NCBI GenBank assembly: GCA_001798165.1
Contig: MGRL01000108.1
Span: 1-33,540, forward strand
Source of the DNA: Deltaproteobacteria bacterium RIFCSPHIGHO2_02_FULL_43_33
Lineage (GTDB): Bacteria > Desulfobacterota > GWC2-55-46 > UBA9637
Reading direction: 5' to 3'
DNA: 33,540 nucleotides
The notes under the pieces were generated by a model. It saw nothing but the letters and a program-made list of their open reading frames with translations, was not told the DNA's origin and did no database searches. A program made the position numbers and the translations under genes. The first letter of the stretch is position 1; each line of letters starts with the position of its first letter. Shown piece after piece: positions 2,355 to 24,596 of the stretch.

Positions 2355-3358
2355 TGACTATTAAGCGGGTCTTAAGCGGCATGAGGCCTTCCGGTAAGCT
2401 GCACCTCGGCCATTTCCACGGCGTTCTTGAAAATTGGCTCAAGCTGCAAAAAGAGCATGAATGTTTTTTCTTTGTGGCTGACTGGCATGCGCTTACCACC
2501 GAGTATAACAACCCTTCCGCTATTCAGGAGAATATCAAGGAGATGGTGATTGACTGGCTGTCTGTGGGGATACTGGGGACAGATTTGAAATCTGTCCCCA
2601 ACTCAACCATATTTCTGCAATCCGCAATCAAAGAACATGCGGAACTGCATCTTCTCCTCTCCATGATAACACCGCTCTCGTGGCTGGAGAGAAATCCCAC
2701 TTACAAGGAACAGGTGGACGAGGTAAAAGATAAGGATTTGCACACCTACGGATTTCTCGGGTATCCTGTTTTGCAGACCGCTGATATTATTATTTATAAG
2801 GCAAATATGGTGCCGGTAGGCATTGACCAGGCGCCGCATCTGGAGCTTTCCCGCGAGATTACCCGAAGATTTAATTTCCTTTACGGCGAAACATTTCCTG
2901 AGCCGCAAACGCTTTTGACGGAAACGCCGAAACTCCTCGGCACTGACGGCAGAAAGATGAGCAAGAGCTACAACAACGCCATATTTTTGTCGGACCCGCC
3001 TGATGTGATAGAAAAAAAGCTCCTGCCCATGTTCACAGACCCGGCGCGCCAGCGGAGGACGGACAAAGGAAATCCTGAGGTATGCCCGGTATATTTTCTG
3101 CATAAGATTTATTCCATTCCTGAAACCATCACGTGGGTTGAGCAGGGATGCAAGACCGCTGGCATCGGCTGCATAGAATGCAAAAAATCGCTCATCCCGT
3201 CTATCGTCAAAAAGCTTGAGCCAATTCAAAAGAAACGGGCAGAGATTGTAAAAAATCCTGACATCGTGAATGAAGCGCTGAACAAAGGAAATAAAAAAGC
3301 GTTAAAAATAGCGCAGGAGACTATGACCGGGGTGAGGAAGGCGTTGAAACTACAGTAG
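2354..3358 (+). CDS. trpS: Tryptophan--tRNA ligase
   Basis: A class I aminoacyl-tRNA synthetase of 334 residues, the normal length, charging tRNA-Trp with tryptophan using ATP. The HIGH motif reads HLGH at residues 17-20 and the KMSKS motif is exact at residues 201-205. The stretch HAELHLLLSMITPLSWLERNPTYKEQ is also typical of bacterial TrpS. The odd feature is the octapeptide GTDLKSVP at residues 75-82. It replaces the short turn normally found between the helix ending in xxVGI and STIFxQS, and is encoded exactly by a 25-bp palindrome. The reading frame stays open, so the enzyme is probably functional with a surface-loop insertion. Confidence 0.97.
   Translation: MTIKRVLSGMRPSGKLHLGHFHGVLENWLKLQKEHECFFFVADWHALTTEYNNPSAIQENIKEMVIDWLSVGILGTDLKSVPNSTIFLQSAIKEHAELHLLLSMITPLSWLERNPTYKEQVDEVKDKDLHTYGFLGYPVLQTADIIIYKANMVPVGIDQAPHLELSREITRRFNFLYGETFPEPQTLLTETPKLLGTDGRKMSKSYNNAIFLSDPPDVIEKKLLPMFTDPARQRRTDKGNPEVCPVYFLHKIYSIPETITWVEQGCKTAGIGCIECKKSLIPSIVKKLEPIQKKRAEIVKNPDIVNEALNKGNKKALKIAQETMTGVRKALKLQ
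2575..2599. repeat. 25-bp intragenic palindrome, copy 1 (in trpS)
   Basis: Perfect 12-bp arms GGGGACAGATTT and AAATCTGTCCCC surround a single central G. Read in trpS as GTDLKSVP. Same family as 7334, 10720, 10840 and 22247. Confidence 0.95.
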
Positions 3359-3376
3359 GCAGTACGCACTACCTGA

Positions 3377-3406
3377 CTCGTTCCCAAGCTGGAGCTTGGG
3401 AACGAG
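3377..3406. repeat. 30-bp perfect palindrome upstream of the first methyltransferase
   Basis: Arms CTCGTTCCCAAGCT and AGCTTGGGAACGAG flank a GG centre. It lies between the trpS stop and the methyltransferase start and has no T-tract, so it is a repeat rather than a standard terminator. A degenerate half copy sits on the other side of the restriction-modification pair at 6120-6139. Confidence 0.85.
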
Positions 3407-3410
3407 ATGA

Positions 3411-5018
3411 ATGTTGCAAATCGAGACAAACATGATTGAGACAAACAAACTGTTAAATATAAAAGAAGCCAGCAAATGGGCAACGGGGCATCTGGGCAAG
3501 ACAGTGACGACCTCAAATATTTCTTATCTTATTCAATACGGAAGAATAAAGAAGATCGGTAGCAACGGCACAACTCTGGTTTCCAAGCATGAGTTAATTA
3601 ACTACTACAAATCTTACAACGGCCACAGAGAACTTTCATGGAAAGACCAGCTTGGCAAGGATTTGAACTGGGCTTTGTCTTTTGACCAATACAAAGAAGC
3701 CGAAACAACAAAACACGTTCACCGGCTCCATCCCTACAAAGGAAAATTCATCCCGCAGTTGGTTGAATATTTTCTTGATAGCCATACCGATAACTTTAAA
3801 AAACAGATTTATTTCAAAAAAGGGGACATCGTTCTTGATCCGTTTTCCGGCAGCGGAACCACATTGGTTCAGTCTTGTGAACTCGGGATGCACGGCATTG
3901 GGATAGATGTTTCAGCGTTTAATTCTTTAATCGGAAATTGCAAGGTAGCCAGATACGACATGGCTGATATTCAAAATCAAATCAACCGAATCAGCAAAGC
4001 CTTCAAAGAGTTTCTTTCAGACTCGCACACGCTTGAGTTTGAGGGGAAACTGCTGAAGGAGCTTTACCGGTTCAACAACAAATATTTTCCGGTTCCCGAT
4101 TATAAATACAAAGTGAAAAGAGGAGAAATCAACGAAGACAAATACGGCGCAGAAAAAGAAAAGGAATTTCTTCCTGTCTTCAATAAACTCGTTAAAGAAT
4201 ACAATATCAAATTGCGGCAAGACAAGGCAGACTCCTTTCTTGACAAGTGGTATTCACAACACATCAGGGAAGAACTTGAATTTGTATTCGATGAAATAAA
4301 AAAGATTGAAAACAGAGACACAAAGAAAATCATCAGCATTATTTTAAGCAGAACGATTCGCTCCTGCCGTGCCACAACCCACGCGGATTTGGCGACGCTC
4401 AAAGAACCGGTAACCGCAACTTATTATTGCGCTAAACACGGAAAGATTTGCAAGCCGCTTTTCTCAATTCCCAAGTGGTGGGAGACCTATTCTCAAGACA
4501 CTGTGAAAAGGCTTATGCAGTTTGACAAGCTGCGCACACGGACTTATCAGGCTTGCTTGACCGGCGACAGCCGCGCCATTGACATTTTCAAAGAACTTGA
4601 AAAGAAAAATTCTCCATTTGCAGCATTGGCAAAGAAGAAAAAAATCAAAGGTATTTTTTCCTCTCCGCCTTATGTCGGACTTATTAATTATCACGAACAG
4701 CACGCTTACGCTTACGACCTTTTCGGTTTTAAACGACAAGACGATTTGGAAATCGGCCCGCTTTTTAAAGGGCAGGGCAAGGGAGCAAAAGAAAGTTATA
4801 TTGCGGGAATCGCCGATGTGCTGAATAATTGCAAAAGGTTTTTAGCTGATGATTATGATATTTTTCTTGTCGCCAACGATAAATATAATATGTATCCTGC
4901 TATTGCAGAAAAGGCAGGAATGAAAATAGTCAATCAATTTAAACGCCCCGTGCTTAACCGCACAGAGAAAGATAAAGGGGCGTATGCGGAAATAATTTTC
5001 CATTTAAGAACAAAGTAA
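3411..5018 (+). CDS. DNA methyltransferase of a type II restriction-modification system, with N-terminal HTH-like domain
   Basis: A 535-residue protein. Residues 12-65 look like a small MerR/excisionase-type winged helix (IKEASKWA, then TTSNISYLIQYGRIKKI, then LVSKHELINYY). The AdoMet-binding motif DPFSGSGTT is at about 142-150 and the catalytic SSPPY motif at about 417-421. The glycine motif precedes the catalytic motif by about 270 residues, unlike the common beta-class order seen in the second methyltransferase here. SPPY points to amino methylation (N4-cytosine or N6-adenine), not C5. It presumably protects DNA from the nuclease encoded 2 bp downstream. A second in-frame Met (3432, MIETNKLL) is an equally plausible start, because GAGACAAAC is duplicated around it. 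The target sequence cannot be read from the protein. Confidence 0.9.
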   Translation: MLQIETNMIETNKLLNIKEASKWATGHLGKTVTTSNISYLIQYGRIKKIGSNGTTLVSKHELINYYKSYNGHRELSWKDQLGKDLNWALSFDQYKEAETTKHVHRLHPYKGKFIPQLVEYFLDSHTDNFKKQIYFKKGDIVLDPFSGSGTTLVQSCELGMHGIGIDVSAFNSLIGNCKVARYDMADIQNQINRISKAFKEFLSDSHTLEFEGKLLKELYRFNNKYFPVPDYKYKVKRGEINEDKYGAEKEKEFLPVFNKLVKEYNIKLRQDKADSFLDKWYSQHIREELEFVFDEIKKIENRDTKKIISIILSRTIRSCRATTHADLATLKEPVTATYYCAKHGKICKPLFSIPKWWETYSQDTVKRLMQFDKLRTRTYQACLTGDSRAIDIFKELEKKNSPFAALAKKKKIKGIFSSPPYVGLINYHEQHAYAYDLFGFKRQDDLEIGPLFKGQGKGAKESYIAGIADVLNNCKRFLADDYDIFLVANDKYNMYPAIAEKAGMKIVNQFKRPVLNRTEKDKGAYAEIIFHLRTK

Positions 5019-5020
5019 TT

Positions 5021-6070
5021 ATGCCACTATCACAAGATAAAATTGAAAAAATATCTTTTCAAATCATCAAGGTTCTTTTTACGCGGTTTGAAAGTTTTCC
5101 TGAAGATGCTTCAAGCAACAGAAATGCTCCCTTTCACACTGCATTCTTAAATGCCTTTGCAGACAAGTTTCAAGGTAAAGTTTCCGATGTTCCGTTTTTT
5201 GTCAGTTTAAGCAGTTGGCTGCAAGGATTGAACACCACATTAGGGCAAACATTCTTTGAGAATGTTGCTCATATTTTAAGCGATGGCGAGAAAAGAGAAT
5301 ACACCTCTAAAAAGCTGGGCAATCTTTCCATTGATAAAAAGCAAAAGGAAAATGCAAATACCATCATAACCGATTTAAGCACAGCGAAAAATATCCCGCA
5401 TCTTGATAACGAGAATCGGAAGCTATTCATACATGATAACACCGAACCGGTGAGCGCTCTGGATTTTTCAGCAGATGTTTTTATAGATGATGGAACTCAA
5501 GTAACTGCTATTGAATTGAAATCAGTAAGACCAAACTCCGGAGAGATGCGCGGTGAAAAGCAGAAAATTTTAGAAGGAAAAGCTGCGCTGTTCAAAAAGT
5601 TTCCGGGTAAAACGGTTCGGTTTTATATCGGTTTCCCATTTGATCCTACACATGAAGCATCTGCGACCGGTTATGACAAAGCAAGATTTCTCAGTTCAAT
5701 TATCAATATGAACAAATACTTTGCCGGCAGCGAGGTTTTACTGGCAAGCGAACTGTGGAATTTTTTATCAGGCGAAACCGCAACAATGGAACAATTGCTG
5801 CAACTCATTAACACGATTGCAACCACTGAGTTTTTAACCAAATACGATTTTCTCAACAACCATCAGAACAAACAGCAAAACCTTAAACTCTACAAACAAA
5901 GATTGGCAGAATGGAACCTTCATTCCGAGATTGAGTTGATAAACAACGAGGCAACAATAAAAGCTAAAACAGGAACAGATAAAAAGTTGGCGAGAATATT
6001 TAACCAACTTGTATTTAAAGACGGCGTGTATAATATAGACAGATTTAAGGCATTAAACGAAATTATCTGA
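5021..6070 (+). CDS. Type II restriction endonuclease, TdeIII-like
   Basis: A 349-residue protein with the family pattern I associate with TdeIII-type endonucleases. Its elements are NAPFHTAFLNAF near residue 35, a central SSWLQGLNTTLGQTFFENVAHIL, then the PD-(D/E)xK-like core SADVFIDDGTQVTAIELKSVRPNSG (ELK at about 165-167), and FYIGFPFDP and SELWNFLSGE further on. Known TdeIII-family enzymes cut GGNCC; whether this one does is inference. It starts 2 bp after the methyltransferase stop, the usual arrangement for a coupled pair. No frameshift or stop breaks it, so the system looks intact. Confidence 0.8.
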   Translation: MPLSQDKIEKISFQIIKVLFTRFESFPEDASSNRNAPFHTAFLNAFADKFQGKVSDVPFFVSLSSWLQGLNTTLGQTFFENVAHILSDGEKREYTSKKLGNLSIDKKQKENANTIITDLSTAKNIPHLDNENRKLFIHDNTEPVSALDFSADVFIDDGTQVTAIELKSVRPNSGEMRGEKQKILEGKAALFKKFPGKTVRFYIGFPFDPTHEASATGYDKARFLSSIINMNKYFAGSEVLLASELWNFLSGETATMEQLLQLINTIATTEFLTKYDFLNNHQNKQQNLKLYKQRLAEWNLHSEIELINNEATIKAKTGTDKKLARIFNQLVFKDGVYNIDRFKALNEII

Positions 6071-6119
6071 TCCGCGCCGTGTTCCGTGCCCATAAAGACA
6101 AGAATCATCTTTCACGGTT

Positions 6120-6139
6120 GACTTGTTCCCAAACTGGAG
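6120..6139 (+). repeat. Half copy of the 3377-3406 repeat, downstream of the first R-M pair
   Basis: This 20-mer matches 3375-3394 at 18 of 20 positions (consensus GACTYGTTCCCAARCTGGAG). The first restriction-modification pair is therefore bracketed by direct repeats. The rest of the 6071-6225 gap holds a CCGTGTTCCGT motif shared with 1629-1697 and nothing else I recognise. Confidence 0.6.
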
Positions 6140-6225
6140 ATTAGGCATTAGATGATAAGGTGATTCAATGTTAAGAAAATTTATTGCTGGCTACCGTTTG
6201 AGATTTACGATATGAAGGAATGGCA

Positions 6226-6615
6226 ATGAGCAAAAAGGTAGTTAAAAACTGGCTTGCCCTTGCAGAGTATGACTTTGAAACGGCAAAGGCGATGATGAAA
6301 AGCGGAAGATACCTGTATGTTGCCTTCACCTGCCAACAGACGATAGAGAAGGCATTAAAGGCTTTGTATGTGAAAGAGAAAGAAGAAACCCCGCCGTATA
6401 CGCATAATCTTATAAGACTTGCAGAAGAATTATCCATTGGTAAACAGATAGACGAAGAAACAAACAGATTTTTAGAGAGATTGAATTCTTATTATATTCA
6501 GTCAAGATATACAGAGGAAATATATCAAATATCAAAATCCCTTGATAAAAAGAGCGCACAGGAGATTTTATCCAAAACAGGAGAGTTGTTTAAATGGCTA
6601 AAAAAACATGTGTAA
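6226..6615 (+). CDS. HEPN-domain protein of a HEPN/MNT pair
   Basis: A 129-residue all-helical protein of the HEPN family (PF05168-type). Evidence is the segment YVAFTCQQTIEKALKALYV, then PYTHNLIRLAEEL, and the late YYIQSRYTEE, matching the family's (S/A)RY(P/T) signature. It lacks a clear Rx4HxY RNase motif, so ribonuclease activity is uncertain. The ATG at 6226 is preferred over 6220 because AAGGA at 6215-6219 sits 6 nt before it. Its 3' end overlaps the nucleotidyltransferase gene by 22 bp. In characterised HEPN/MNT systems the nucleotidyltransferase neutralises the HEPN toxin, sometimes by adenylylation; that role is inferred here from pairing only. Confidence 0.85.
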   Translation: MSKKVVKNWLALAEYDFETAKAMMKSGRYLYVAFTCQQTIEKALKALYVKEKEETPPYTHNLIRLAEELSIGKQIDEETNRFLERLNSYYIQSRYTEEIYQISKSLDKKSAQEILSKTGELFKWLKKHV

Positions 6616-6932
6616 TAGAGGAAGACACTATTAAAAAAGAGATATCCGTTTTCTATAACTTGATAAAAGACGCTTATCCGGTAAAGAAGATGATCCTGTA
6701 CGGTTCTTATGCAAAAGGAGTTGCAACAAAGGACAGCGATATAGATGTTGGAGTTATCATTGATTTGCCTGACAGTGTAAACAAAGTGGAAATAACGGCA
6801 AATCTGTTTCATATCGCCAGAAAGATTGATACCCATATTGAACCTCTGTGCATTTTATGGAGCGAATACAAAAATTTTGAGCGCGGCAGTATTCTTTCGG
6901 AAATAGTTAAAACCGGAATTGAGGTGGTTTAA
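6594..6932 (+). CDS. MNT-type nucleotidyltransferase, partner of the HEPN protein
   Basis: A 112-residue minimal nucleotidyltransferase with the pol-beta-fold motif GSYAKGVATKDSDIDVGV: the GS motif, then the DxD metal-binding pair. The fold ends in HIEPLCILWSEY and a short helix. These proteins transfer AMP or another nucleotide to a protein or tRNA. As the downstream partner of a HEPN protein, it is the probable antitoxin. Translation starts inside the HEPN gene, so expression is likely coupled. It ends 14 bp before scpA, which has no good Shine-Dalgarno of its own; that border looks like an insertion junction. Confidence 0.87.
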   Translation: MAKKTCVIEEDTIKKEISVFYNLIKDAYPVKKMILYGSYAKGVATKDSDIDVGVIIDLPDSVNKVEITANLFHIARKIDTHIEPLCILWSEYKNFERGSILSEIVKTGIEVV

Positions 6933-6946
6933 CTTTATCTACTGTT

Positions 6947-7723
6947 ATGTCCTACAAAGTCAAACTTGAAATATTTGAAGGCCCTCTTGACCTTCTCCTC
7001 CACCTCATAAAACAAAATGAGGTGGATATCTATGATATTCCCATTTCCATTATTACAGCGCAGTATCTGGAATATGTAGAGATGATGAAGACCCTCAACC
7101 TTGAGGTGGCAGGGGAATTCCTGCTCATGGCAGCCACTCTCATCCACATCAAGTCAAAGATGCTTCTGCCTTTTTCAGAGGAGGCGGGTGAGGAAAAAGA
7201 GGAGGGCGGCGACCCGCGGCAGGAGCTTATCAGGAGACTGCTTGAATATCAGAAGTATAAAGAGGCTTCGGCCCAATTGGAACAAATGATGATTCTCGGC
7301 AGAGATACATTTACCAAAGGCCAGATGCCTGCTGGGGACAGATTTCAAATCTGTCCCCAAGAAGAAGGGGGATTGGTAAATTTATCCCTCTTTGATTTGC
7401 TGGAGGCATTAAAAGATGTCTTGGCAAAGGCGCCGAAGACTATCGGTTTTGACATAGCATTAGAACATATCACCATCGCAGACAGGATAAATTTTATCAT
7501 GGAGCTTTTGAGCAAGGAAAAGAGCATAACATTTTTCTCCCTGTTTCCTTCAAGCAGCAGCAGGGCTATGATAGTTACAACGTTCCTTGCAATGCTTGAA
7601 CTTACCAAGATGAAGGTGATAAGAATTTACCAGTCCGAGCAGGATGGGGTGATACGGCTTTATGTGCCGGAAAGCAGTTCGGAGTTGGGAGTTCAGGATT
7701 CGGAGATAGTAAGTCAGGAGTAA
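6947..7723 (+). CDS. scpA: Segregation and condensation protein A (kleisin)
   Basis: A 258-residue kleisin subunit of the SMC-ScpAB condensin, which organises and segregates the chromosome. The N-terminal SMC-neck-binding region is typical (LEIFEGPLDLLLHLIKQNEVDIYDIPI), with LLMAATLIHIKSKMLLP after it and the C-terminal winged helix (TTFLAMLELTKMKVIRIYQ) near the end. Residues 130-137 (GDRFQICP) are encoded by the 25-bp palindrome, in a different frame from the other copies, and fall in the variable linker. The last 14 or so residues are encoded by a heptamer array at 7678-7726. scpA normally adjoins scpB; here a restriction-modification pair separates them. Confidence 0.95.
   Translation: MSYKVKLEIFEGPLDLLLHLIKQNEVDIYDIPISIITAQYLEYVEMMKTLNLEVAGEFLLMAATLIHIKSKMLLPFSEEAGEEKEEGGDPRQELIRRLLEYQKYKEASAQLEQMMILGRDTFTKGQMPAGDRFQICPQEEGGLVNLSLFDLLEALKDVLAKAPKTIGFDIALEHITIADRINFIMELLSKEKSITFFSLFPSSSSRAMIVTTFLAMLELTKMKVIRIYQSEQDGVIRLYVPESSSELGVQDSEIVSQE
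7334..7358. repeat. 25-bp intragenic palindrome, copy 2 (in scpA)
   Basis: Arms GGGGACAGATTT and AAATCTGTCCCC with central C. It is shifted one frame relative to the other copies and is read as GDRFQICP. Confidence 0.95.
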
Positions 7724-7726
7724 GAG
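7678..7726 (+). repeat. Seven tandem heptamers at the scpA 3' end
   Basis: Consecutive 7-bp units read TTCGGAG, TTGGGAG, TTCAGGA, TTCGGAG, ATAGTAA, GTCAGGA, GTAAGAG. They encode the ScpA C-terminal tail and provide its stop codon, and end 10 bp before the second methyltransferase gene. Confidence 0.75.
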
Positions 7727-7735
7727 GGCGGTAAA

Positions 7736-8848
7736 ATGAAAACAACCGGCAGAATTACAAGGTCTTATAAGAAACATTTTATAAAAAAGAAACAACCTGT
7801 AGTCAAGGAATCCCCTGTTCTCTATAGACCAATTGAAACGTCATTTCAAGATTTGCTGAATAATATAATACAGGGAGATAATCTTGAGATATTAAAATTG
7901 ATTCCCGACAATACAGTAAATTTGATCATCACTTCCCCTCCCTATTTTAAACAAAGAGATTACGGCGGCGGCATCGGGAATGAAAAAACCGTTGAGGAAT
8001 ATATTGATAATCTGCTGAAGGTTTTCTCGGAGTGCGTTCGTATTTTAAAGGATGACGGAAGTATCGTATTCAATCTGGGCGATAAATATTTGGAAGGAAG
8101 CCTTCAATTGATTCCATATCGATTTGCCGTTGCGTCTTTAAAATCATTTCCGGTCAAACTGGTGAACAGCATCACTTGGGTAAAATCCAATCCTACACCA
8201 AGACAATATCAGAGAAGACTTGTGAGCAGCGCCGAACCATTTTTTCATTTTATAAAAAACGACAACTACTGTTATAACTTTGCCGACTACATGAGTAATA
8301 ACGGATTGAAAAGCAAACGAACCGCAGGCAATAACATCGGAAAAAAATATTTTGAGCTCATAGAAACCTCTGCTCTAACACTGGAGCAAAAGAAGATGGC
8401 CCTCTGCGAATTGCAGGAAATAATAGAGGCGGTTAAATCCAGGAAAATAGAGAGCTTCCGCATGAAGATAAAGGGCATTCATTCCGAGCCGTTTGGCGGG
8501 CAAGACGGGGGCAGAAAATATCAGCTCATGAGAAAAGGTTTCACAATCATAAAAATTAAAGGCGAACCGATAAAAAGGGATGTGATAGAGTGCGCGGTAG
8601 AAACAATAAAAGGATGCAAACACCCCGCCATCTATCCGCTGTCTATTATTAAAGAACTCATAAAACTCCTTTCCTTGCCCGGCAATATTGTATTGGATCC
8701 GTTCATGGGAAGTGGCACCACGGCGGCGGCGGCCAAAGAACTGGACAGAAGGTATATCGGCATTGAAAGCAATGAGGAATATTGCAAATATGCGCAAGAG
8801 CGGATTAAAAATATCGGGATAGGGAAACCGCTGGAGCTTTTCAGGTGA
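7736..8848 (+). CDS. Beta-class DNA methyltransferase (probably N4-cytosine) of a second restriction-modification system
   Basis: A 370-residue protein with the beta-class motif order. The catalytic TSPPY lies near residues 65-69, and the AdoMet motif DPFMGSGTT is near 320-328, followed by ELDRRYIGIESNEEY. TSPPY is the usual form in N4-cytosine enzymes, but N6-adenine cannot be excluded. About 100 residues between the motifs (around 185-290) form a probable target-recognition insert with SEPFGGQDGGRKYQL. A GAGGGCGGT sequence lies just upstream of the ATG. The stop codon region overlaps the start of the next gene, its presumed nuclease. The pair lies between scpA and scpB, clearly a foreign insertion in that operon. 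Confidence 0.9.
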   Translation: MKTTGRITRSYKKHFIKKKQPVVKESPVLYRPIETSFQDLLNNIIQGDNLEILKLIPDNTVNLIITSPPYFKQRDYGGGIGNEKTVEEYIDNLLKVFSECVRILKDDGSIVFNLGDKYLEGSLQLIPYRFAVASLKSFPVKLVNSITWVKSNPTPRQYQRRLVSSAEPFFHFIKNDNYCYNFADYMSNNGLKSKRTAGNNIGKKYFELIETSALTLEQKKMALCELQEIIEAVKSRKIESFRMKIKGIHSEPFGGQDGGRKYQLMRKGFTIIKIKGEPIKRDVIECAVETIKGCKHPAIYPLSIIKELIKLLSLPGNIVLDPFMGSGTTAAAAKELDRRYIGIESNEEYCKYAQERIKNIGIGKPLELFR

Positions 8849-8853
8849 GAGAA

Positions 8854-9987
8854 ATGACTGCCGATAAAAAGAAAACGCATAGAGATATTCTTCAGGAAAT
8901 TTACCGAAAGGCATTGACCATAGTCAATGACGCTGTTGTCCGGCATTTGTTTGATGAGTTTGGGACTGAAGAGAAAAAATATTTACAGACGGTAATAGAT
9001 AATTTTGAAAAAGGCAAAGGAGTTTTAACGGTTCTCATAACAAGCCTCGTTCATAAGCTGCACAATCCCGCGCAGGATATTCGGCTGCATCAGGATAATA
9101 TGAACGGCGGATATTCCGGCAGAGGAATTGATACAAAATATGTTACTCCTTTTATGAAGGAAATGGAATTTCCTTCAATGGCGGAAAGCGGTTGGTTGAC
9201 GAGATCGCTGGAGCAAAACCTTCCGTATGATTTTCATTACCCGGGAAAAATAACTCCCGATGAGTTGAAAAGAGCATTTCTTAACCTGCTTGACCTGATC
9301 CAAAATCAAAACAGGTCTCCTGAAAAATATTTATTGGCGTTATTTGTAAAACTGATTGAGTATCGTGAGCAGAAAAAGATTGACTTGGCAAAACCTACCA
9401 ACCTTTCCATATCGGCCATCGTTCATGATCTCAAAGAACATTTTGAAGCAGGCTATTCATGCCGAGGGGCTTCCCGCTTGCCTACCTTGGCTGTTTATGC
9501 CGTTTATCAATGCATGATAAAAGAACTGAAACGGTTCGAGGGCAAGCAATTGATGCCATTGGAAGAGCATACTTCCCCTGATAAAAGATCAGGCATGGTA
9601 GGTGATATTGAAGTGAGGAATGCAAAGGGAAGGGTATTTGAAGCCGTTGAGATTAAACATGGAATTTCCATAAATACCAATTTAATCAGAGACGCTTACG
9701 AAAAATTCAAGTCGCATCCGATAGAACGGTATTATCTGTTGACCACCGCAGAAGAAGATTTATCGCATGCCGGGAGCATTGCAAAAGAAGTTTCCAGAAT
9801 ATCAAAAATCCACGGCTGCCAAGTAATTGTGAATGGCATCTATCCGACGCTCAAATATTATTTGCGGCTTTTACACGATCCCTATGATTTTATTGACAAC
9901 TATGTGGAAAGCTTAAAGAGCGACAAAACCATAAAATATGAGCATAAACTGAAATGGAATGAGATTGTCAGCCGGCAGGTATCATAA
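8854..9987 (+). CDS. Type II restriction endonuclease, partner of the second methyltransferase
   Basis: A 377-residue protein with an apparent PD-(D/E)xK core: GDIEVRNAKGRVFEAVEIKHG at about residues 250-270, with EIK as the catalytic pair. A distinctive block lies earlier (HNPAQDIRLHQ, then GGYSGRGIDTKYVTPF, then MAESGWLTRSLEQ). From memory this block resembles proteins annotated as SacI-family endonucleases, but I hold that weakly. Position directly after the methyltransferase makes a restriction role the simplest reading. The ATG at 8854 is preferred over GTG at 8845 because AGGTGA at 8843-8848 is well spaced. No disruption is visible. Confidence 0.75.
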   Translation: MTADKKKTHRDILQEIYRKALTIVNDAVVRHLFDEFGTEEKKYLQTVIDNFEKGKGVLTVLITSLVHKLHNPAQDIRLHQDNMNGGYSGRGIDTKYVTPFMKEMEFPSMAESGWLTRSLEQNLPYDFHYPGKITPDELKRAFLNLLDLIQNQNRSPEKYLLALFVKLIEYREQKKIDLAKPTNLSISAIVHDLKEHFEAGYSCRGASRLPTLAVYAVYQCMIKELKRFEGKQLMPLEEHTSPDKRSGMVGDIEVRNAKGRVFEAVEIKHGISINTNLIRDAYEKFKSHPIERYYLLTTAEEDLSHAGSIAKEVSRISKIHGCQVIVNGIYPTLKYYLRLLHDPYDFIDNYVESLKSDKTIKYEHKLKWNEIVSRQVS

Positions 9988-10011
9988 AATTTCACAATGG
10001 AGTAATACAAC

Positions 10012-10674
10012 ATGGACAAAGACAGCTTAAAACCGCTCATAGAAACCATAATCTTTGCCGCTGATCATCCCATCAGCTTTGAAAAACTGATGAATGTATT
10101 GGAAGGGGAAAAGCGGGATGAGGTGAGGCTTGCACTGAATGAGTTGATGGTTGACTATGTGCAATCAAGGCGAGGATTTACCATTGAAGAGGTGGCAGGC
10201 GGATATCAGCTCAGGACAAGGCCTGAGTTTTCGCCGTGGCTCAGGCGGCTTTTCAAGATAGGGTTCCAGAAACTGAGCAAGGCATCTATGGAGACCCTTG
10301 CCATGATTGCATATAAGCAGCCGATTACAAGGATGGAGATAGAAGAGATCAGAGGAGTTGACTGCGGCGGGGTTTTGAAGACGCTCATGGACAGGAATCT
10401 CATAAAGATTATCGGCAGGAAAGAGGTGCCTGGCAGGCCGGCAGTATATGGGACGACAAAGGAATTTCTTGAGATTTTTGATTTGAAAGACCTTTCGTGT
10501 CTGCCCACATTAAAAGAAATTATTATGCCGCAGGAGGAAGAAATTGCAGGAGAGATTACAGAAGATAATAGCGCAAGCGGGGATAGCGTCCAGACGCAAG
10601 GCAGAGGAGATGATTCTGGAGGGGAGGGTCACGGTCAACCGCAAGGCAGCGACGAAACTGGGGACCAAGGCTGA
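10012..10674 (+). CDS. scpB: Segregation and condensation protein B
   Basis: A 220-residue partner of ScpA in the SMC condensin complex, built of two winged helices. Typical segments are LIETIIFAADHPISFEKL, then GFTIEEVAGGYQLRTRPE, KLSKASMETLAMIAYKQPITRMEIEEIRG and the closing GRKEVPGRPAVYGTTKEFLEIFDL. The conserved protein ends near residue 175 (LPTLKEI). The remaining 45 residues are a low-complexity Gly/Gln/Asp/Glu tail, produced because the frame runs 131 bp into rluB before meeting a stop. The tail is probably an accident of a lost stop. A GGAG lies 9 nt before the ATG. Confidence 0.95.
   Translation: MDKDSLKPLIETIIFAADHPISFEKLMNVLEGEKRDEVRLALNELMVDYVQSRRGFTIEEVAGGYQLRTRPEFSPWLRRLFKIGFQKLSKASMETLAMIAYKQPITRMEIEEIRGVDCGGVLKTLMDRNLIKIIGRKEVPGRPAVYGTTKEFLEIFDLKDLSCLPTLKEIIMPQEEEIAGEITEDNSASGDSVQTQGRGDDSGGEGHGQPQGSDETGDQG
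10532..10537 (+). promoter_or_regulatory. Strong ribosome binding site that fixes a TTG start for rluB
   Basis: AGGAGG lies 6 nt before TTG at 10544, inside scpB. The next codons give QERLQKIIAQAGIASRRKAEE, the standard RluB N-terminus, so TTG is the true start. Confidence 0.85.
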
Positions 10675-11305
10675 CCCTGAAAAGGATAGGATTGCGGTTG
10701 ACGGCAGGGTAATATCAGCGGGGGCAGATTTAAAATCTGTCCCCAAAATATATATCCTGCTCAATAAGCCCAAAGGGGTTATAAGCACGGTTTCAGACCC
10801 TGAAGGAAGGCCTACGGTCATTGACCTTGTAAAAAAATTGGGGACAGATTTCAAATCTGTCCCCAGGTTAAGACTCTTCCCCATCGGAAGATTAGACTTA
10901 GATGCGGAAGGTGTTTTGCTCCTCACCAATGATGGAGAGCTTGCCAATAAGCTCATCCATCCCAGATATAAAATTCCCAAAAAATATCTGGTCAAGGTCA
11001 GCGATGCGCCTGATGACAAGGATATTGCCAAGCTTAAAAAAGGCATCTATCTTGAAGACGGCAGGACTCTGCCTGCTGAGGCTAAATTCATAAAGGCAAC
11101 AAAGACAAATTCGTGGATAGAGCTTACAGTGTATGAGGGGAGAAACAGATTGGTGAAGCGGATGTGCTTTGCAATAGGCCATTCCGTGCTAAAGTTACAG
11201 AGGACGGAATTTGCAGGCATAAAACTCGGCAGCCTCAAGCCTGGAGATTTCAGGATGCTGACAGCAGGTGAAGTGAAAAAACTGAAGGGGTGGACTGAAC
11301 CTTGA
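10544..11305 (+). CDS. rluB: 23S rRNA pseudouridine synthase, RluB/RsuA family
   Basis: An N-terminal S4 RNA-binding domain (LQKIIAQAGIASRRKAEEMILEGRVTVN) is followed by the RsuA-type catalytic domain with YILLNKPKG, the catalytic-Asp motif GRLDLDAEGVLLLTNDG and the late GRNRLVKRM. The product isomerises a uridine in the peptidyl-transferase region of 23S rRNA in RluB relatives. Two copies of the 25-bp palindrome lie in frame. GADLKSVP (residues 60-67) is in the linker between the S4 and catalytic domains, and GTDFKSVP (100-107) is in the loop before LFPIGRLD. Key residues are intact, so activity is expected. The start codon is TTG, within scpB. Confidence 0.94.
   Translation: MQERLQKIIAQAGIASRRKAEEMILEGRVTVNRKAATKLGTKADPEKDRIAVDGRVISAGADLKSVPKIYILLNKPKGVISTVSDPEGRPTVIDLVKKLGTDFKSVPRLRLFPIGRLDLDAEGVLLLTNDGELANKLIHPRYKIPKKYLVKVSDAPDDKDIAKLKKGIYLEDGRTLPAEAKFIKATKTNSWIELTVYEGRNRLVKRMCFAIGHSVLKLQRTEFAGIKLGSLKPGDFRMLTAGEVKKLKGWTEP
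10720..10744. repeat. 25-bp intragenic palindrome, copy 3 (in rluB)
   Basis: Same arms with central A and one A-to-G change in the left arm, which would still pair as G-U in RNA. Read as GADLKSVP. Confidence 0.92.
10840..10864. repeat. 25-bp intragenic palindrome, copy 4 (in rluB)
   Basis: Perfect arms with central C, read as GTDFKSVP. It lies 95 bp after copy 3, in the same gene and the same frame. Confidence 0.95.
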
Positions 11306-16593: not shown

Positions 16594-16731
16594 ATGCAAG
16601 ACATTGTCTTAAATTCACAATCCGAAATCCCAAATCCGAAATCCGAAGACCTCACCCCTGCCATGAGGCAGTATCTGAGAGGGGGCTGCGTCGAAAAAAT
16701 GGCCGCAGGAGTAAACGAATTAAATTTGTAG
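16594..16731 (+). pseudogene. Truncated duplicate of the mutS 5' end
   Basis: An ATG frame of 45 codons reads MQDIVLNSQSE..., then SEDLTPAMRQYL, then an unrelated tail and a stop. The true MutS begins MQDIILNPQSE... and continues LTPAMQQYMEIKQG. The match extends upstream: TCTTTTTGTTACTATC is identical before both ATGs (16571 and 21854). So 16570-16680 is a diverged copy of the mutS leader and first codons, carrying none of the MutS domains. It marks a duplication or insertion event that left the RND operon between remnant and gene. Confidence 0.8.
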
Positions 16732-16765
16732 TCTGCCTATCCCGTTTAAATACATAACGGGACAA

Positions 16766-16820
16766 GTTTATCGGCGATTTTAATTCGCCTCAGGCGGACG
16801 CCCATAAATGGGCAAACTAC
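16766..16820 (+). repeat. Degenerate two-hairpin intergenic repeat, copy 3
   Basis: The TTTATCGGCG half, a diverged middle containing CGCCTCAGGCGG, and an intact GCCCATAAATGGGC half ending CAAACTAC. It lies 92 bp upstream of the efflux adaptor gene. Confidence 0.65.
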
Positions 16821-16911
16821 ATCTACTTATTTTTGTCGTCCACTATAATACATAAATCTCCCCGTTGTTTCAGTAATTATTAAAACGCTATTTGCTGCTG
16901 AAAGGAACATT

Positions 16912-18054: not shown

Positions 18055-21000
18055 TACTGTCGGACAACGCAGTGCGTCAGAGAATAAGTGTAATGGTCCT
18101 GGCGGTTATCATAATCGTTTTTGGCGTATACTGCTATAAAGTCCTGCCCCGTGAGAGCGAACCTGATATCACTATTCCATTTGTATTTGTCTCAACGCCC
18201 TACAAGGGTGTCTCACCCTCGGATATTGAAACCTCAATTACGATCCCTATAGAGAAAAAACTTAAAGGCCTTGAAGGGGTAAAAAAGGTCAACTCCATAA
18301 GCTCCGAAGGGCAATCCTCTATAAGTATAGAGTTCGTAACCGGCACGGATATAGACGACGCCATTGAGAAGGTCAGGAACAAGGTAGACGAGGCAAAGAA
18401 TGAACTGCCCTCTGACCTGGAAGATGACTCCTCGGTTTTTGAGGTGAATTTTTCCGAGATGCCGATTGTAATATTTTCACTGAGCGGCACCTGTGGAAAC
18501 CCATGTCTGAAGAAAATAGCGGACGAGATAGAAGACGAGATTGAGGCTATTCCGGGCGTGCTTGACGCAGAAATATCAGGTGCGCTTGAGCGTGAGATCC
18601 GCATTGAAATCAATCCTGAAAAGCTTGCCTATTATAATATTCCTATTACTGCTTTCCAACGTGTAGTCTCCGGCGAGAATCAGAACATATCAGGCGGCGC
18701 CATCAGACTTGGCGATGGACGCTTCCAGCTCAGGGTGCCGGGGGAATTCAGAATGCCTGAGGAGATATACGGTCTTATTGTCGGCACTCACGATGGCCAG
18801 CCAGTTTATCTGAAAGACCTGGCGCGTGTGAAGGACGGGTTTAAGGATGAAACCAGCCGCTCGCGTCTGAACGGGCGTGAATCTGTAAACATCGCTGTAA
18901 AAAAGCGGGCAGGTGAAAACATAATTGAGATAACGGACAGGGTTGACGAAATACTTGCGCGCCTCAGTCCAGGCTGGCCAAAGGGCACTAATATCATTAA
19001 GGTCATGGACAAGTCCAAGGATATACGCATTATGGTCGCTGACCTTGAAAATAATATCTACACCGGTTTAGTACTGGTAGTCCTCGTGCTGCTCTTTGCA
19101 ATGGGTATCAGAAACGCAATACTTGTAGGCCTTGCAATACCTTTTTCAATGCTCCTCTCTTATGTTGTCTTGTATGTGATGGGAATTACACTGAATATGG
19201 TGGTGCTCTTCAGCCTGATACTTGCGCTTGGGATGCTCGTAGACAATGCCATTGTTATCGTTGAGAATATTTACCGCTATATGCAGCAGGGGGTTTCACG
19301 AAGCCAGGCGGCAATGCGCGCTGCATCAGAGGTTGCATGGCCGATAATAGGCTCTACACTGACGACGCTCGCTGCATTTTTTCCGATGATCTTCTGGCCC
19401 GGGATAATGGGGGAATTCATGAAATATCTCCCGATTACACTTATAGTAACTCTTACGGCAAGCCTGTTTGTTGCATTAGTCATAAATCCCGCGCTTGCCT
19501 CTTTCTTCATGAAGACAAAAAACAGCTTGGGCAAAAGCCTTAGTTCAGAAGAGGCATTTGCAGCAGGAGAAAAGCCGATAGAGATAAAGGGTGTTGTGCT
19601 TATCCTTTATGCCGGATTACTAAAAGCCGCTCTAAGGCATCGTCTAACAGTAACACTCTCCACCTTTCTCCTTATGATAATCCTTTTTCAGGGGTGGCTC
19701 CTTGTTGTGGGGCTTGAAAGGCCGGTCGAGTTTTTCCCGCACATAGACCCGAAGTCAATGTATGTGAATATTGATGTGCCTGAAGGAACGGACATTGATT
19801 ACAATGACCGCATACTCAAGCAGATTGAAATGCATATTAACGGCGCTGTCACTGACATTGGCGGCGCTATTGATGATATGTATAAAGAATCTTATCTGCC
19901 AAAGCGCCATAAAAAAGCAGGCAATGATGAATATACAAGCTCCAGCGACCTTGAAAACATAGAATATATTTACGCGCGGTCAGTGGCCTTCCCCACTGCG
20001 GGTTCGGCATTTGAGCCGATGGCTGCAAACCATGTAGGCATACAATTTATCGACATGAAAGACCGCCGTGTCCCTTCATCTGATACCCTTGATAAGGTCC
20101 GTGAGCGTGTAAAAGATATCCCCGGCAGCAAGGTGACAATAGCAGAGGCTGAACAAGGTCCGCCAACAGGCGCTCCGATAAATATTGAGATATCCGGCAC
20201 TGACTTTAGGGTGCTTGGCCGTCTGGCAGGGGAGATACGCAAGGTCATCGAACAAATCCCGTATGTTGAAGATATAAGAGACGATTATGTCGAGGGTACG
20301 CCGTCAGTCAGGGTGTCTGTGGACAGGCAGAAGGCAGCGCTTTTCGGGCTCACGACCGACTCCATAGGTTTTGCGCTCAAGACCGGTTACAACGGCCTTA
20401 ACATTTCAACATACCGTGAAGAAGATGAGGACTTTGATATCACTGTTCAACTTGCTGACCCGGACCGCAGGGTAATAGATATACTTCGCGAGCTGATGCT
20501 GCCGACTCCGGCAGGCAAGATCGTTCCGCTTACAACTGTTGCGAAGATAGATTATTCAGGGAGCCTTGGCAATATCATAAGGATCAATCACTCGCGTGTG
20601 GTTACAGTCAAGGCCAATGTTGACGAAACAAAGATACCCGGCGCTGTGGCGCGTCTCCAGGCAGAGGAGTTGCTTAAGAAATTCCCGATCCCCGCTGGAT
20701 ACAGGATGAAGTTTACCGGCGAGTTTGAGTTTCAAAAAGAGTCTGAGGAGTTTTTGTCCAAGGCGTTTGTTATCGCGCTTTTCCTTATATTCCTTATTCT
20801 TGTTGCCATGTTTAATTCTGTTTCACAGCCCTTTATCATCATGACCTCGGTAATCCTTTCATTGGGCGGGGTCTTCCTCGGTCTAATGACCATAAGTTCT
20901 CCATTCGGCATCATCATGACCGGCGTCGGGGTAATATCACTTGCCGGCGTTGTGGTTAACAATGCCATCATACTTGTTGACTACACAAACAAACTTCGCA

Positions 21001-21368
21001 AGAGGGGGATGAACATCCATAATGCAGTTGTTGCAGGAGGCGCTACCCGGCTGAGGCCAGTGCTCCTTACCGCGATAACGACCATACTCGGCCTTATTCC
21101 CATGGTAACCGGCGTATCGTACGATTTTAAGAATTGGAAAATTTCATGGGTGAGCGAATCTACACAGTGGTGGCGCACTATGGCCGTAGTCGTAATCTAC
21201 GGACTCATGCTCGCAACATTCCTTACCCTTGTTGTTGTGCCGACTCTCTACTCGCTTTTCGACTCATTCCAAAACAGGGCGGGTTCGTATGTTGAGAGTA
21301 TAAGAAGGTTTTACTGGAAGCCTTATGAATGGCTGACAGGCAGAGCAGGGAATAGGCAAAACGAGTAA
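18051..21368 (+). CDS. RND-family efflux transporter permease
   Basis: A 1105-residue inner-membrane pump with the duplicated RND layout. TM1 near residues 12-30 is followed by a periplasmic loop (porter), six TM helices at about 340-560, a second porter loop, and a final TM bundle at about 910-1080. The proton-relay segment in TM4 reads GMLVDNAIVIVENIYR: D398 is present but the second Asp of HAE pumps is Asn. This falls in the broad HAE/AcrB-like branch; the drug or metabolite exported cannot be told. It begins with GTG, overlapping the adaptor stop. Arg codons CGT and CGC are frequent here, while the first 400 codons of mutS use almost only AGA, AGG and CGG, suggesting transfer. Confidence 0.95.
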   Translation: MILSDNAVRQRISVMVLAVIIIVFGVYCYKVLPRESEPDITIPFVFVSTPYKGVSPSDIETSITIPIEKKLKGLEGVKKVNSISSEGQSSISIEFVTGTDIDDAIEKVRNKVDEAKNELPSDLEDDSSVFEVNFSEMPIVIFSLSGTCGNPCLKKIADEIEDEIEAIPGVLDAEISGALEREIRIEINPEKLAYYNIPITAFQRVVSGENQNISGGAIRLGDGRFQLRVPGEFRMPEEIYGLIVGTHDGQPVYLKDLARVKDGFKDETSRSRLNGRESVNIAVKKRAGENIIEITDRVDEILARLSPGWPKGTNIIKVMDKSKDIRIMVADLENNIYTGLVLVVLVLLFAMGIRNAILVGLAIPFSMLLSYVVLYVMGITLNMVVLFSLILALGMLVDNAIVIVENIYRYMQQGVSRSQAAMRAASEVAWPIIGSTLTTLAAFFPMIFWPGIMGEFMKYLPITLIVTLTASLFVALVINPALASFFMKTKNSLGKSLSSEEAFAAGEKPIEIKGVVLILYAGLLKAALRHRLTVTLSTFLLMIILFQGWLLVVGLERPVEFFPHIDPKSMYVNIDVPEGTDIDYNDRILKQIEMHINGAVTDIGGAIDDMYKESYLPKRHKKAGNDEYTSSSDLENIEYIYARSVAFPTAGSAFEPMAANHVGIQFIDMKDRRVPSSDTLDKVRERVKDIPGSKVTIAEAEQGPPTGAPINIEISGTDFRVLGRLAGEIRKVIEQIPYVEDIRDDYVEGTPSVRVSVDRQKAALFGLTTDSIGFALKTGYNGLNISTYREEDEDFDITVQLADPDRRVIDILRELMLPTPAGKIVPLTTVAKIDYSGSLGNIIRINHSRVVTVKANVDETKIPGAVARLQAEELLKKFPIPAGYRMKFTGEFEFQKESEEFLSKAFVIALFLIFLILVAMFNSVSQPFIIMTSVILSLGGVFLGLMTISSPFGIIMTGVGVISLAGVVVNNAIILVDYTNKLRKRGMNIHNAVVAGGATRLRPVLLTAITTILGLIPMVTGVSYDFKNWKISWVSESTQWWRTMAVVVIYGLMLATFLTLVVVPTLYSLFDSFQNRAGSYVESIRRFYWKPYEWLTGRAGNRQNE

Positions 21369-21394
21369 CCCGGAAAATGAAATGGCATTTTCTG

Positions 21395-21467
21395 ATAATA
21401 CATCATATGGGATAAGAATCATGTGATGTTGGCCAGACACTGGCCAAGTGCGAAAATGGTGTATTAT
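21395..21467. repeat. Inverted repeat with inner hairpin, downstream of the RND gene
   Basis: Outer arms ATAATACATCAT (21395-21406) and ATGGTGTATTAT (21456-21467) match at 11 of 12 positions. Inside is a perfect TTGGCCA-gacac-TGGCCAA hairpin (21429-21447). No T-run follows, so a Rho-independent terminator is not supported. Confidence 0.55.
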
Positions 21468-21490
21468 TCAACCAGTCAAGTCTAATTAAA

Positions 21491-21639
21491 TTAACAGGCT
21501 GTTGAAAAAGGCATCAACAGCCTTGATTACACAGATTAGGAAAAACGATTACACAGATATTTCAATGGGTTTTAATCTGTGAAATCTAATCTTTTATCCG
21601 TGTAATCGGAGTTTGTTGAGTTTTTCAACAAACTGTTAA
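21491..21639. repeat. 149-bp inverted-repeat element upstream of mutS
   Basis: Terminal arms TTAACAGGCTGTTGAAAAA and TTTTTCAACAAACTGTTAA pair at 17 of 19 positions. The interior continues the symmetry with GATTACACAGAT-type repeats on the left and ATCTGTG/CCGTGTAATC on the right. No ORF is present. The structure suggests a MITE-like or hairpin element. Confidence 0.75.
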
Positions 21640-21684
21640 ATAGTTGCGGCGATTTGATTTTGTGATTTGGTTGATATGGCTCTA

Positions 21685-21720
21685 AAAGTTGGATAAAGTC
21701 CAGAAACTGTATAATCAGTT
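21685..21720 (+). promoter_or_regulatory. Possible sigma-70-type promoter upstream of a mini-ORF and mutS
   Basis: A TTGGAT sequence lies about 15-16 nt before a consensus TATAAT. The spacing is slightly short, so this is only a candidate. The next 30 bp contain two AGGAGG-like sequences. Confidence 0.35.
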
Positions 21721-21747
21721 CTTAGGAGGAAAATCAGGAGGATTACC

Positions 21748-21810
21748 ATGGATACCGCTGGTTCTGTTAAAGGGTTTAAAAATTTCCTAATTTCAATTCC
21801 TAATTCCTAA
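21748..21810 (+). CDS. 20-codon mini-ORF, leader peptide or truncated gene start
   Basis: AGGAGG at 21736-21741 lies 6 nt before the ATG, one of the best ribosome binding sites in the window. The frame encodes MDTAGSVKGFKNFLISIPNS and stops inside a heptamer array. The first 13 residues look like a real protein N-terminus; the last six are encoded by repeat DNA. It may be a gene truncated by repeat insertion or a short leader for mutS. I cannot assign a function. Confidence 0.35.
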   Translation: MDTAGSVKGFKNFLISIPNS

Positions 21811-21828
21811 TTAACAATTCCCGTTCCC
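21794..21828 (+). repeat. Tandem heptamers upstream of mutS
   Basis: Units CAATTCC, TAATTCC, TAATTAA, CAATTCC, CGTTCCC in strict 7-bp register. A comparable array (AATCCGA/AATCCCA units) lies in the mutS remnant at 16618-16648. Confidence 0.7.
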
Positions 21829-21875
21829 TGTCTTTATTATTGCCTCTCACCTATCTTTTTGTTACTATCTTTTTT

Positions 21876-24596
21876 ATGCAAGATATTATCTTAAATCCCC
21901 AATCCGAGAGCGCAACTCTTAACTCCGAAGCCTCAAATACTGGCGAACGGCAGTTCGCCCCTACAAACTCTCTTACCCCAGCGATGCAGCAGTATATGGA
22001 GATTAAGCAGGGTTGCAAAGACGCCATCCTGTTTTTCAGAATGGGCGATTTCTATGAGATGTTTTTTGAAGACGCCAAGCTTGCCTCAAAAACCTTAAAT
22101 ATTACCCTTACAACAAGAGACAGAAACAAAGAAAATGCCATTCCCATGTGCGGCGTGCCGTATCATGCGGCAGCCGGGTATATAGCAAGACTTGTTAAAG
22201 AAGGGCACAAGGTGGCTGTGTGCGAACAGGTTGAGGGCCGAAACCCCCTCACAGATTTAAAATCTGCCCCCACTGCAAAAGGCATCATGCGGCGGGAGAT
22301 AACGCGGGTCATCACACCTGGTGTTGTGTTGGAAGAAGAGTTGCTGGATGCAAAGACAAACAATTTCATAGCAGCCTTAACATGGACTGAAAATATGGGC
22401 GGTCTCTCTTATATGGATGTGACCACAGGTGAATTTAAGGTGACAGAATTTTCTGGAAAGAATGAACTATTGGATGAGATGAAACGGATAGAGATGAAAG
22501 AACTGCTTATCCCGGAAGAATTAGCTAACAGTAAATCTTTTGCAGAATTCTCAAAGGCTGCAAATAATGTGAGGGTTACGCTCTTACATGGATGCAATGT
22601 GCGGCATGAGGAAGCTGTATACGGTTTGACATCTCATTTTCAGGTTATATCTCTGGATGGTTTTGGATGTGCTTCGCTGAGTGAGGGTGTAAAGGCTGCG
22701 TGGATTCTGCTCAAGTATGTGAGGGAAACACAGAAAGGTGCACTTCCTCATATAAAAAGATTATCTGCCTATCATCCCAGCCAGTTTATGATAATAGACT
22801 CCATGACAAAGAAGAATCTTGAGCTCATAGAGACCATACGGCACAGCGGGAAAAAGGGGACGCTCCTCGGTCTTTTAGACAAAACCAAGACTGCCATGGG
22901 CGGAAGAAGATTAAGGGCCTGGTTAGACTCGCCTCTGAAAGATGTGTCAGAGGTAAATAGAAGGCTTGATGCTGTTGAGGAGATGTCCGGAGAAAAGCTG
23001 GTTCGGGAGGAGATTCAGGTCTATCTGGTCAAGGTGTATGATATTGAAAGGCTTGCGGTAAGGGTAGCCCTTGATACAGCAAATCCGCGGGATATTATCA
23101 GCCTCAGGGATTCGCTCAGGATTATACCAAAGATAAAGAACCTTCTAAAGCCCTTTAGTTCAGCCCTCATGAAGGGCATCTATCATGGATTGGATGATGT
23201 AAAAGAGGCTGCTGATTTGATCGAGGCCGGTATTATTGATTTACCTCCAATGACAGCAAGGGAAGGCGGTGTTATCAGAGAGGGATTCAATGCAGAATTG
23301 GATGAGTTGCGAGGCATCATGAGCAGCGGCAAGGATTGGATTTCAAGATTTGAGGCAGGTGAGAAAAAGAGGACAGGCATAAATTCTTTAAAGGTTGGAT
23401 ATAATAAAATCTTTGGATATTATGTTGAGATTACAAAGGCCAATCTGCCGCAGGTTCCGGTTAATTATGCAAGAAAGCAGACCCTTGTGAATGCTGAAAG
23501 GTTTATAACGTCTGAGTTGAAGGAGTATGAGACCAAGGTTCTCGGCGCAGAGGAAAGGGTGATAATTCTGGAGCAGAGGCTCTTTCATGAAATAAGAAAG
23601 AAGGTTGCTTTTTACAGGGATAGGATTCAGGAGACTGCAAACCTTTTGGCAGGCTTGGATGTCCTGACTGCCTTTAGTCAAATAGCAGATGATATGGATT
23701 ATGTCAGGCCCAAGATAAACGACGGGGATGCAATAAATATTATGGAAGGCAGACATCCTATTATAGAGGCGAATAAGGAAGAGCGGTTTGTTTCCAACGA
23801 CACCTTATTAGACGGCGCAGATAATCAGATAATAATCCTTACAGGCCCTAACATGGCAGGCAAGTCCACTTACATAAGGCAGGCTGCCCTTATCGTGATT
23901 ATGGCGCAGATTGGGAGTTTTGTGCCTGCAAAAGAGGCGATGATAGGTATTGTTGACAGGGTGTTTACACGGATAGGCGCGTCAGATGACATAAGCAGAG
24001 GTCTTTCCACATTCATGGTTGAGATGAGCGAGACTGCCAGCATACTCAACAATGCTACGGAAAAGAGTCTTGTTATCCTTGATGAGATAGGCAGGGGCAC
24101 ATCTACCTATGACGGTTTGAGCATAGCATGGGCTGTTGCAGAATATATCCACGACCATCCGCAGGTCAGGGCAAAAACCCTTTTTGCAACGCATTATCAC
24201 GAATTGACAGAACTTTCTTTAACAAAAGACAGGGTAAGAAATTATAATATGGCGGTCAAGGAATGGAATGACAAGGTTATCTTCTTAAGAAAGGTAGTGC
24301 CGGGCGGAAGCAACCGCAGCTATGGAATTCAGGTTGCAAGGCTTGCTGGTATGCCGGAGCATGTTATACAGAGGGCAAAGGAGATATTGCATAATCTTGA
24401 AAAGGGCGAGCTTAATGAGGCAGGCATGCCGAGACTGGCTTCGTCAAAAAATATGGAACAGACAATCCCGCAGATGAATCTTTTCGGCGAAAAGGATTTG
24501 GTAAAAGAGGAGCTGCTCAAAATAGATGTAAACAGCCTTACGCCGGTAGAGGCGTTGGTGAAGCTGAGTCAGTTGAAGGAGATGGCAGAGGAGTGA
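21876..24596 (+). CDS. mutS: DNA mismatch repair protein MutS
   Basis: A mismatch-recognition ATPase of 906 residues from the ATG at 21876. FFRMGDFYEMFFEDA carries the mismatch-contacting Phe-X-Glu. Walker A is GPNMAGKSTYIRQ, Walker B DEIGRGTSTYDG, and FATHYHELTEL follows; the C-terminus carries the short PVEALVKLSQLKEM. The frame is open from TTG at 21840, but ATG 21876 is preferred because the duplicated remnant at 16594 shares it. The first 36 residues before MQQYM are an unusual extension, partly made of repeats (GERQFAPT from 21942-21959). LTDLKSAP at 125-132 comes from a degenerate 25-bp palindrome. No mutL is in the window. Confidence 0.96.
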   Translation: MQDIILNPQSESATLNSEASNTGERQFAPTNSLTPAMQQYMEIKQGCKDAILFFRMGDFYEMFFEDAKLASKTLNITLTTRDRNKENAIPMCGVPYHAAAGYIARLVKEGHKVAVCEQVEGRNPLTDLKSAPTAKGIMRREITRVITPGVVLEEELLDAKTNNFIAALTWTENMGGLSYMDVTTGEFKVTEFSGKNELLDEMKRIEMKELLIPEELANSKSFAEFSKAANNVRVTLLHGCNVRHEEAVYGLTSHFQVISLDGFGCASLSEGVKAAWILLKYVRETQKGALPHIKRLSAYHPSQFMIIDSMTKKNLELIETIRHSGKKGTLLGLLDKTKTAMGGRRLRAWLDSPLKDVSEVNRRLDAVEEMSGEKLVREEIQVYLVKVYDIERLAVRVALDTANPRDIISLRDSLRIIPKIKNLLKPFSSALMKGIYHGLDDVKEAADLIEAGIIDLPPMTAREGGVIREGFNAELDELRGIMSSGKDWISRFEAGEKKRTGINSLKVGYNKIFGYYVEITKANLPQVPVNYARKQTLVNAERFITSELKEYETKVLGAEERVIILEQRLFHEIRKKVAFYRDRIQETANLLAGLDVLTAFSQIADDMDYVRPKINDGDAINIMEGRHPIIEANKEERFVSNDTLLDGADNQIIILTGPNMAGKSTYIRQAALIVIMAQIGSFVPAKEAMIGIVDRVFTRIGASDDISRGLSTFMVEMSETASILNNATEKSLVILDEIGRGTSTYDGLSIAWAVAEYIHDHPQVRAKTLFATHYHELTELSLTKDRVRNYNMAVKEWNDKVIFLRKVVPGGSNRSYGIQVARLAGMPEHVIQRAKEILHNLEKGELNEAGMPRLASSKNMEQTIPQMNLFGEKDLVKEELLKIDVNSLTPVEALVKLSQLKEMAEE
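21942..21959. repeat. In-frame palindrome in the MutS N-terminal extension
   Basis: GGCGAAC-ggca-GTTCGCC with perfect 7-bp arms, followed by CCTACA. It encodes part of TGERQFAPT, which is absent from the mutS remnant at 16594, so it was probably inserted after the duplication. Confidence 0.7.
22247..22271. repeat. 25-bp intragenic palindrome, copy 5 (degenerate, in mutS)
   Basis: The core CAGATTT-A-AAATCTG is intact and the right end CCCC is kept. The left G-run has decayed. Read as LTDLKSAP, in the same frame as in trpS and rluB. Confidence 0.8.

Follow-up and report, generated by a model that had tools for sequence, protein, structure and literature searches.

The window analysed here comprises positions 1-33,540 (33,540 nucleotides) of contig MGRL01000108.1 from Deltaproteobacteria bacterium RIFCSPHIGHO2_02_FULL_43_33 (assembly GCA_001798165.1), a member of the order UBA9637. 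It contains the housekeeping genes trpS, scpA, rluB and mutS, all of which hold a short palindrome in frame (Table 1). The copies at 2575, 7334, 10720 and 10840 show 0, 0, 1 and 0 mismatches, respectively, with 0 expected in shuffles, and a fifth, degenerate copy lies at 22247 in mutS. The preliminary description of this DNA had listed these five copies, two of them in rluB, with the centre bases G, C, A, C and A and one arm change that would still pair as G-U; all of this was found again, the arm change being at 10720. At the mutS site, intact copies of the palindrome occupy the same position in two relatives, G002 and G009. Alignment to solved homologues places the insert in TrpS and MutS and, in broad terms, in RluB.

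Table 1. Insert sites and host genes in the window.
Feature	Position	Strand	Remarks
trpS, host gene	2354..3358	+	PDB 2g36 homologue, E=6.8e-111
27-bp palindrome in trpS	2574..2600	.	read L-GTDLKSVP-(N); takes the place of the usual DPEK loop
scpA, host gene	6947..7723	+	PDB 3w6j homologue; that alignment leaves the insert unplaced
27-bp palindrome in scpA	7333..7359	.	read GDRFQICPQ
rluB, host gene with two inserts	10544..11305	+	PDB 4lab homologue
palindrome, rluB site 1	10719..10745	.	arm A to G (G-U pair), outer T is C; read GADLKSVP
27-bp palindrome, rluB site 2	10839..10865	.	read LGTDFKSVP
mutS, host gene	21840..24596	+	PDB 7ou2 homologue without the insert
decayed palindrome in mutS	22246..22272	.	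read (P)LTDLKSAP

The region from trpS to scpB (3411-9984) also carries an N6_N4_Mtase DNA methylase, a TdeIII-type restriction endonuclease and a HEPN/nucleotidyltransferase pair; scpA is followed by a further N6_N4 methylase and its partner gene. These are apparent restriction-modification and toxin-antitoxin genes. An intergenic repeat at 21496-21634 consists of two hairpins, AGGCTGTTGAAAAAGGCATCAACAGCCT and AGTTTGTTGAGTTTTTCAACAAACT, which occur 7 times (variants included) and 4 times, respectively, in 218 kb of sequence from the same genome.

The palindrome itself is real, but its length, first given as 25 bp, has to be extended: in the source genome, each of the 33 distinct exact copies is preceded by T and followed by A, and the unit is thus 27 bp, T[25]A. 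The hairpin has the layout GGGGACAGATTT-N-AAATCTGTCCCC, with the arms GGGGACAGATTT around one variable centre base. A search of the source genome (2.19 Mb, 126 contigs) at up to 3 mismatches delivered 46 copies, and the reversed control pattern delivered 0 copies in the same search. A rarer 39-bp form with the pattern TGGGGACAG...CTGTCCCCA, mostly TGGGGACAGATTTCATCCGCCAAAGGCGGACTGTCCCCA, accounts for five further copies and contains an inner hairpin. RNA folding energies are strong for both forms, -18.8 kcal/mol (z -5.4) for the 27-bp and -24.8 kcal/mol for the 39-bp form. Among the copies of the genome the arms stay and the centre varies. Most arm changes are one-sided, and both arms are altered symmetrically in only 1 of 46 copies.

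One copy (C116, with 3 mismatches in a heptosyltransferase-like ORF) was set aside as doubtful. By our classification 29 of the remaining 45 copies lie inside long ORFs and 16 outside, and the genic copies are all in frame. The earlier statement that no copy is intergenic is true of the window but is a small-sample effect, with about 16 of 45 copies intergenic genome-wide. With a coding fraction of about 0.85-0.91 in the sampled DNA of this genome, genic copies are in fact under-represented (p=5e-4 at 0.85). Many of the intergenic copies are located at the tip of a CCCCC/GGGGG hairpin. Genic hosts beyond the window include leuS, queA, dnaE, recJ, tsaD, selB (two copies), formate-THF ligase, ilvB, ffh, psd, ppx/gppA, recG and truA; host names are our reading of the ORFs, database-tested for the window genes only.

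Each genic insert adds a nine-residue peptide, most commonly in the frame GTDLKSVP. Including mutS, 20 copies are read as GTD(L/F)KSVP, 7 as GDRF.ICPQ and 3 as WGQI.NLSP, a use of frames that is mildly skewed against the stop-allowed expectation (p=0.04). Only two frames are used in the window, as initially noted, but all three occur elsewhere in the genome. The stop codon proposed to close the third frame does so for an A or G centre, which closes the WGQ frame, but this frame is used with a C centre; the GDRF frame is closed when the centre is T. On each strand, one or more frames of the 27-bp unit are free of stops, and both 27 and 39 are multiples of 3.

Orthologues of the host genes were compared across eight relatives in the order. 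The proposal of recurrent in-frame insertion is supported, as orthologues from other phyla (the PDB homologues of TrpS, MutS and RluB) and many close relatives are without the residues. TrpS without insert mostly reads (D/N)P(E/D)(K/R/E), as in Thermotoga 2g36; insert-free MutS reads ED-PK-(x)AKG or the like, and the alignment with E. coli MutS opens a gap of nine residues. A simple addition of the unit was not borne out, since every well-aligned site has lost 1-4 host codons, whether in the act of insertion or through trimming afterwards. Counted by eye on codon alignments, the net gain is +15 bp in RecJ, Ppx, RecG, a GATase-like protein (L041) and IlvB, +18 bp in TrpS, ScpA, SelB and Psd, +21 bp in MutS (G002/G009), a DUF1015-like protein, Ffh and DnaE, and +24 bp in RluB site 2 and a FabF-like protein; the sites in QueA, formate-THF ligase and TsaD are less clear.

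Occupancy is polymorphic even within the genus, where G001 has 8 of about 20 comparable sites occupied, one of them in another frame and one interrupted. The trpS insert is present in the source genome, G002 and G009 and absent from G001, G003-G005, G008 and G010; the ppx insert is present in the source genome, G001, G008 and G009, and the distribution of single sites is homoplasious. In some loops (L041, L033) the frame of the insert differs between genomes. At shared sites, third codon positions are 90% identical in the insert vs 59% in the flanks, in pairs selected for 5 or more shared residues out of 9, which is a mild bias. This contrast suggests that insertion was recent or recurrent, that copies were homogenised, or that the arms are constrained. 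The same loop of Ffh holds an interrupted palindrome in G001 (L262), whereas in G003 (L264) it is occupied by a CCCCC/GGGGG hairpin repeat of unrelated sequence, so that one loop accepts several repeat families.

The palindrome is found in 10 of 10 better-assembled genomes of the order (5-44 copies each at up to 1 mismatch), not in order member G007 (62% complete), and in 0 of 86 other genomes of the phylum. Its spread across phyla is patchy: among the matches listed, exact copies originate from Gammaproteobacteria, Syntrophales, Nitrospirae and other MAGs and isolates (Marinobacter, Geobacter). The same 24 arm bases occur in distant phyla, and the T..A flank varies outside the order. In-frame genic copies exist in other taxa too, e.g. 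in valyl-tRNA synthetase (L172) and an HGD-D protein (L118). An assembly artefact was ruled out, as the palindrome is present in many independent assemblies including those of the isolates. Predicted viral contigs contain exact copies in 13 stretches. One of these contigs, IMGVR_UViG_3300033489_000011 (54 kb), has 12 exact palindromes in three fetched stretches (L432, L433, L438) and may be a vector, or else bacterial DNA that was misclassified.

The arms GGGGACAGATTT match the terminal inverted repeat (TIR) of one clade of Y1/HUH transposases. The seed of this clade comes from a Coprothermobacterota MAG (L320), in which the Y1 transposase gene is bracketed by GGGGACAGATTTATTT and AAATAAATCTGTCCCC. 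Of 13 non-seed Y1 loci at least 52% identical to the seed, 10 carry the TIR motif GGGGACAG adjoining the gene, vs 0 of 26 loci below 52% identity (Fisher p=4.5e-7). The motif is typically located 31-54 bp upstream and/or just downstream of the gene; in L361 it occurs only 215 bp downstream, and in L362 it is present as the palindrome. Both TIR ends were seen in L357 (seed), L358, L359, L444 and L446. L444 belongs to a control genome of the class (G016), which has the gene and both ends and no palindromes. Within the order, G002 contains a partial clade gene with the end repeat at a contig edge (L366/L413) and G009 a 28-residue remnant. The source genome retains seven TIR-end relics, GGGGACAGATTTATTT, with ATTTATTT; no intact clade transposase was found in it, the best match (49%) being cut by a contig end. 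Y1 queries from the source genome (tblastn) detected no Y1 gene near the palindromes in 133 loci, because these Y1 proteins are only distantly related to the TIR-bearing clade; a clade query also detected none in the same 133 loci or in the viral loci.

The initial comparison with Rickettsia palindromic elements (RPE) is fair in principle but overlooked this nearer relative. Both are palindromes in frame in unrelated protein genes; the present repeat is set apart by sequence, by taxon and by the indicated transposase link. RPE-1 is much longer than 27 bp. The repeat resembles REP/REPIN (RAYT) sequences as a short palindrome associated with a Y1 transposase and with some in-frame intragenic copies, but all copies are without a GTAG or CGTC foot, and the arms are the complete repeat. 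TIRYTs (TIRtrons) have terminal repeats GGGGWSAS, some of which are dispersed as dimers (PMC3733652, Di Nocera et al. 2013). GGGGACAG, as GGGG-A-C-A-G, fits this consensus; here, too, inverted repeats flank a Y1/HUH gene and are dispersed as singles and dimers. Unlike TIRYTs, the dispersed unit is a fused, perfect 27-bp palindrome in frame at about 30 protein places in one genome, in which no intact cognate transposase was found; such a gene is usual for TIRYTs, though published as not required. In PMC3733652, transposase genes show no obvious correlation with repeat families; GTAG and CGTC REPs, RPE-4 and RPE-6 among them, are described there as having intragenic copies, some of them in frame, e.g. 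in uvrA, recB and DnaE, and the passages considered here mention no such copies of TIR repeats. According to PMC6006769, most TIRYTs belong to TnpA-Y1 subclass 2.1, with a C-terminal HTH. In the seed protein Pfam detects Y1_Tnp only and no C-terminal HTH, so that subclass 2.1 is not claimed; the repeat is filed as TIRYT/TIRtron-type, its in-frame 27-bp form being new. A literature search for the insert peptide gave no match, and one for the 12-mer arms gave unrelated papers only.

We consider it likely that the palindrome is a minimal non-autonomous repeat in which two TIRs (GGGGACAGATTT) of a Y1/HUH element of the TIRYT kind stand head-to-head with one base between them. A transposase of this kind, provided in trans at present or formerly, would cut the single-stranded hairpin and insert it anew, and the repeat may still be mobile. 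As the unit is 27 bp in the order, insertion itself would tend to keep the reading frame, and genic copies would persist where the presumably neutral peptide falls in a tolerant surface loop. Several results count against a TIRYT-type repeat: no intact clade member was found in the source genome and no Y1 gene near the palindromes in the loci searched, the seed protein shows no C-terminal HTH, net gains range from +15 to +24 bp with no clean +27, and clade members are present in 12 of 35 palindrome-positive vs 3 of 35 palindrome-negative genomes (p=0.018), only a moderate excess. Spread independent of a transposase is unlikely; the palindromes would then be made and kept perfect by template switching during replication, by repair of hairpins or by gene conversion among dispersed copies. 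The conserved arms around a varying centre would fit such processes, as would the inner hairpin of the 39-bp form and the copies nested at the tips of other hairpins (CCCCCTTTTC[27]CAGGGGG). Copy-specific inverted flanks of at least 5 bp, found in 14 of 124 copies in other phyla vs about 0.1 expected, would fit as well; together with the hairpin-tip copies they suggest hairpin tips as targets or products. Such processes leave unexplained why the arms coincide with the TIRs of a single Y1 clade and why the same arm bases recur in distant phyla, and the mostly one-sided arm changes speak against them.

A selected site, either for protein binding of the palindrome or for a function of the peptide in the host proteins, is very improbable. 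It would account for the conservation of the arms at shared sites across diverged hosts and for the stable RNA hairpin, but the host genes are unrelated, three frames are used, about a third of the copies are intergenic and presence is polymorphic among close relatives. The latter polymorphism, together with copy number and genic location, also ruled out a DNA-uptake or regulator site. Ancient vertical inheritance with repeated loss appears the least probable reading: the trpS pattern could reflect one gain and several losses, yet random loss would not restore the Thermotoga-like TrpS loop seen in most insert-free lineages, and the loops that hold the insert in different frames disagree with it. 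It is possible, though doubtful, that the palindrome acts as a frame-safe mobile hairpin, selfish DNA that would recurrently take the same essential-protein loops across lineages, swapping 1-4 codons and steadily remodelling the loops.

Palindromic insertions that keep the reading frame have mainly been known from Rickettsia and GTAG/CGTC REPs; they are herewith tied to the little-studied TIRYT class of HUH transposases. With one nine-residue insert recurring at about 30 sites in housekeeping proteins and varying in presence between close relatives, the order offers a natural series in which the entry and persistence of selfish DNA in essential genes become directly testable. Apparently, a second repeat family exists within coding DNA of the same genome: a Y1_Tnp ORF on contig 82 (L058, 1054-1854) contains in-frame SVGQGF(T/S).. 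repeats.
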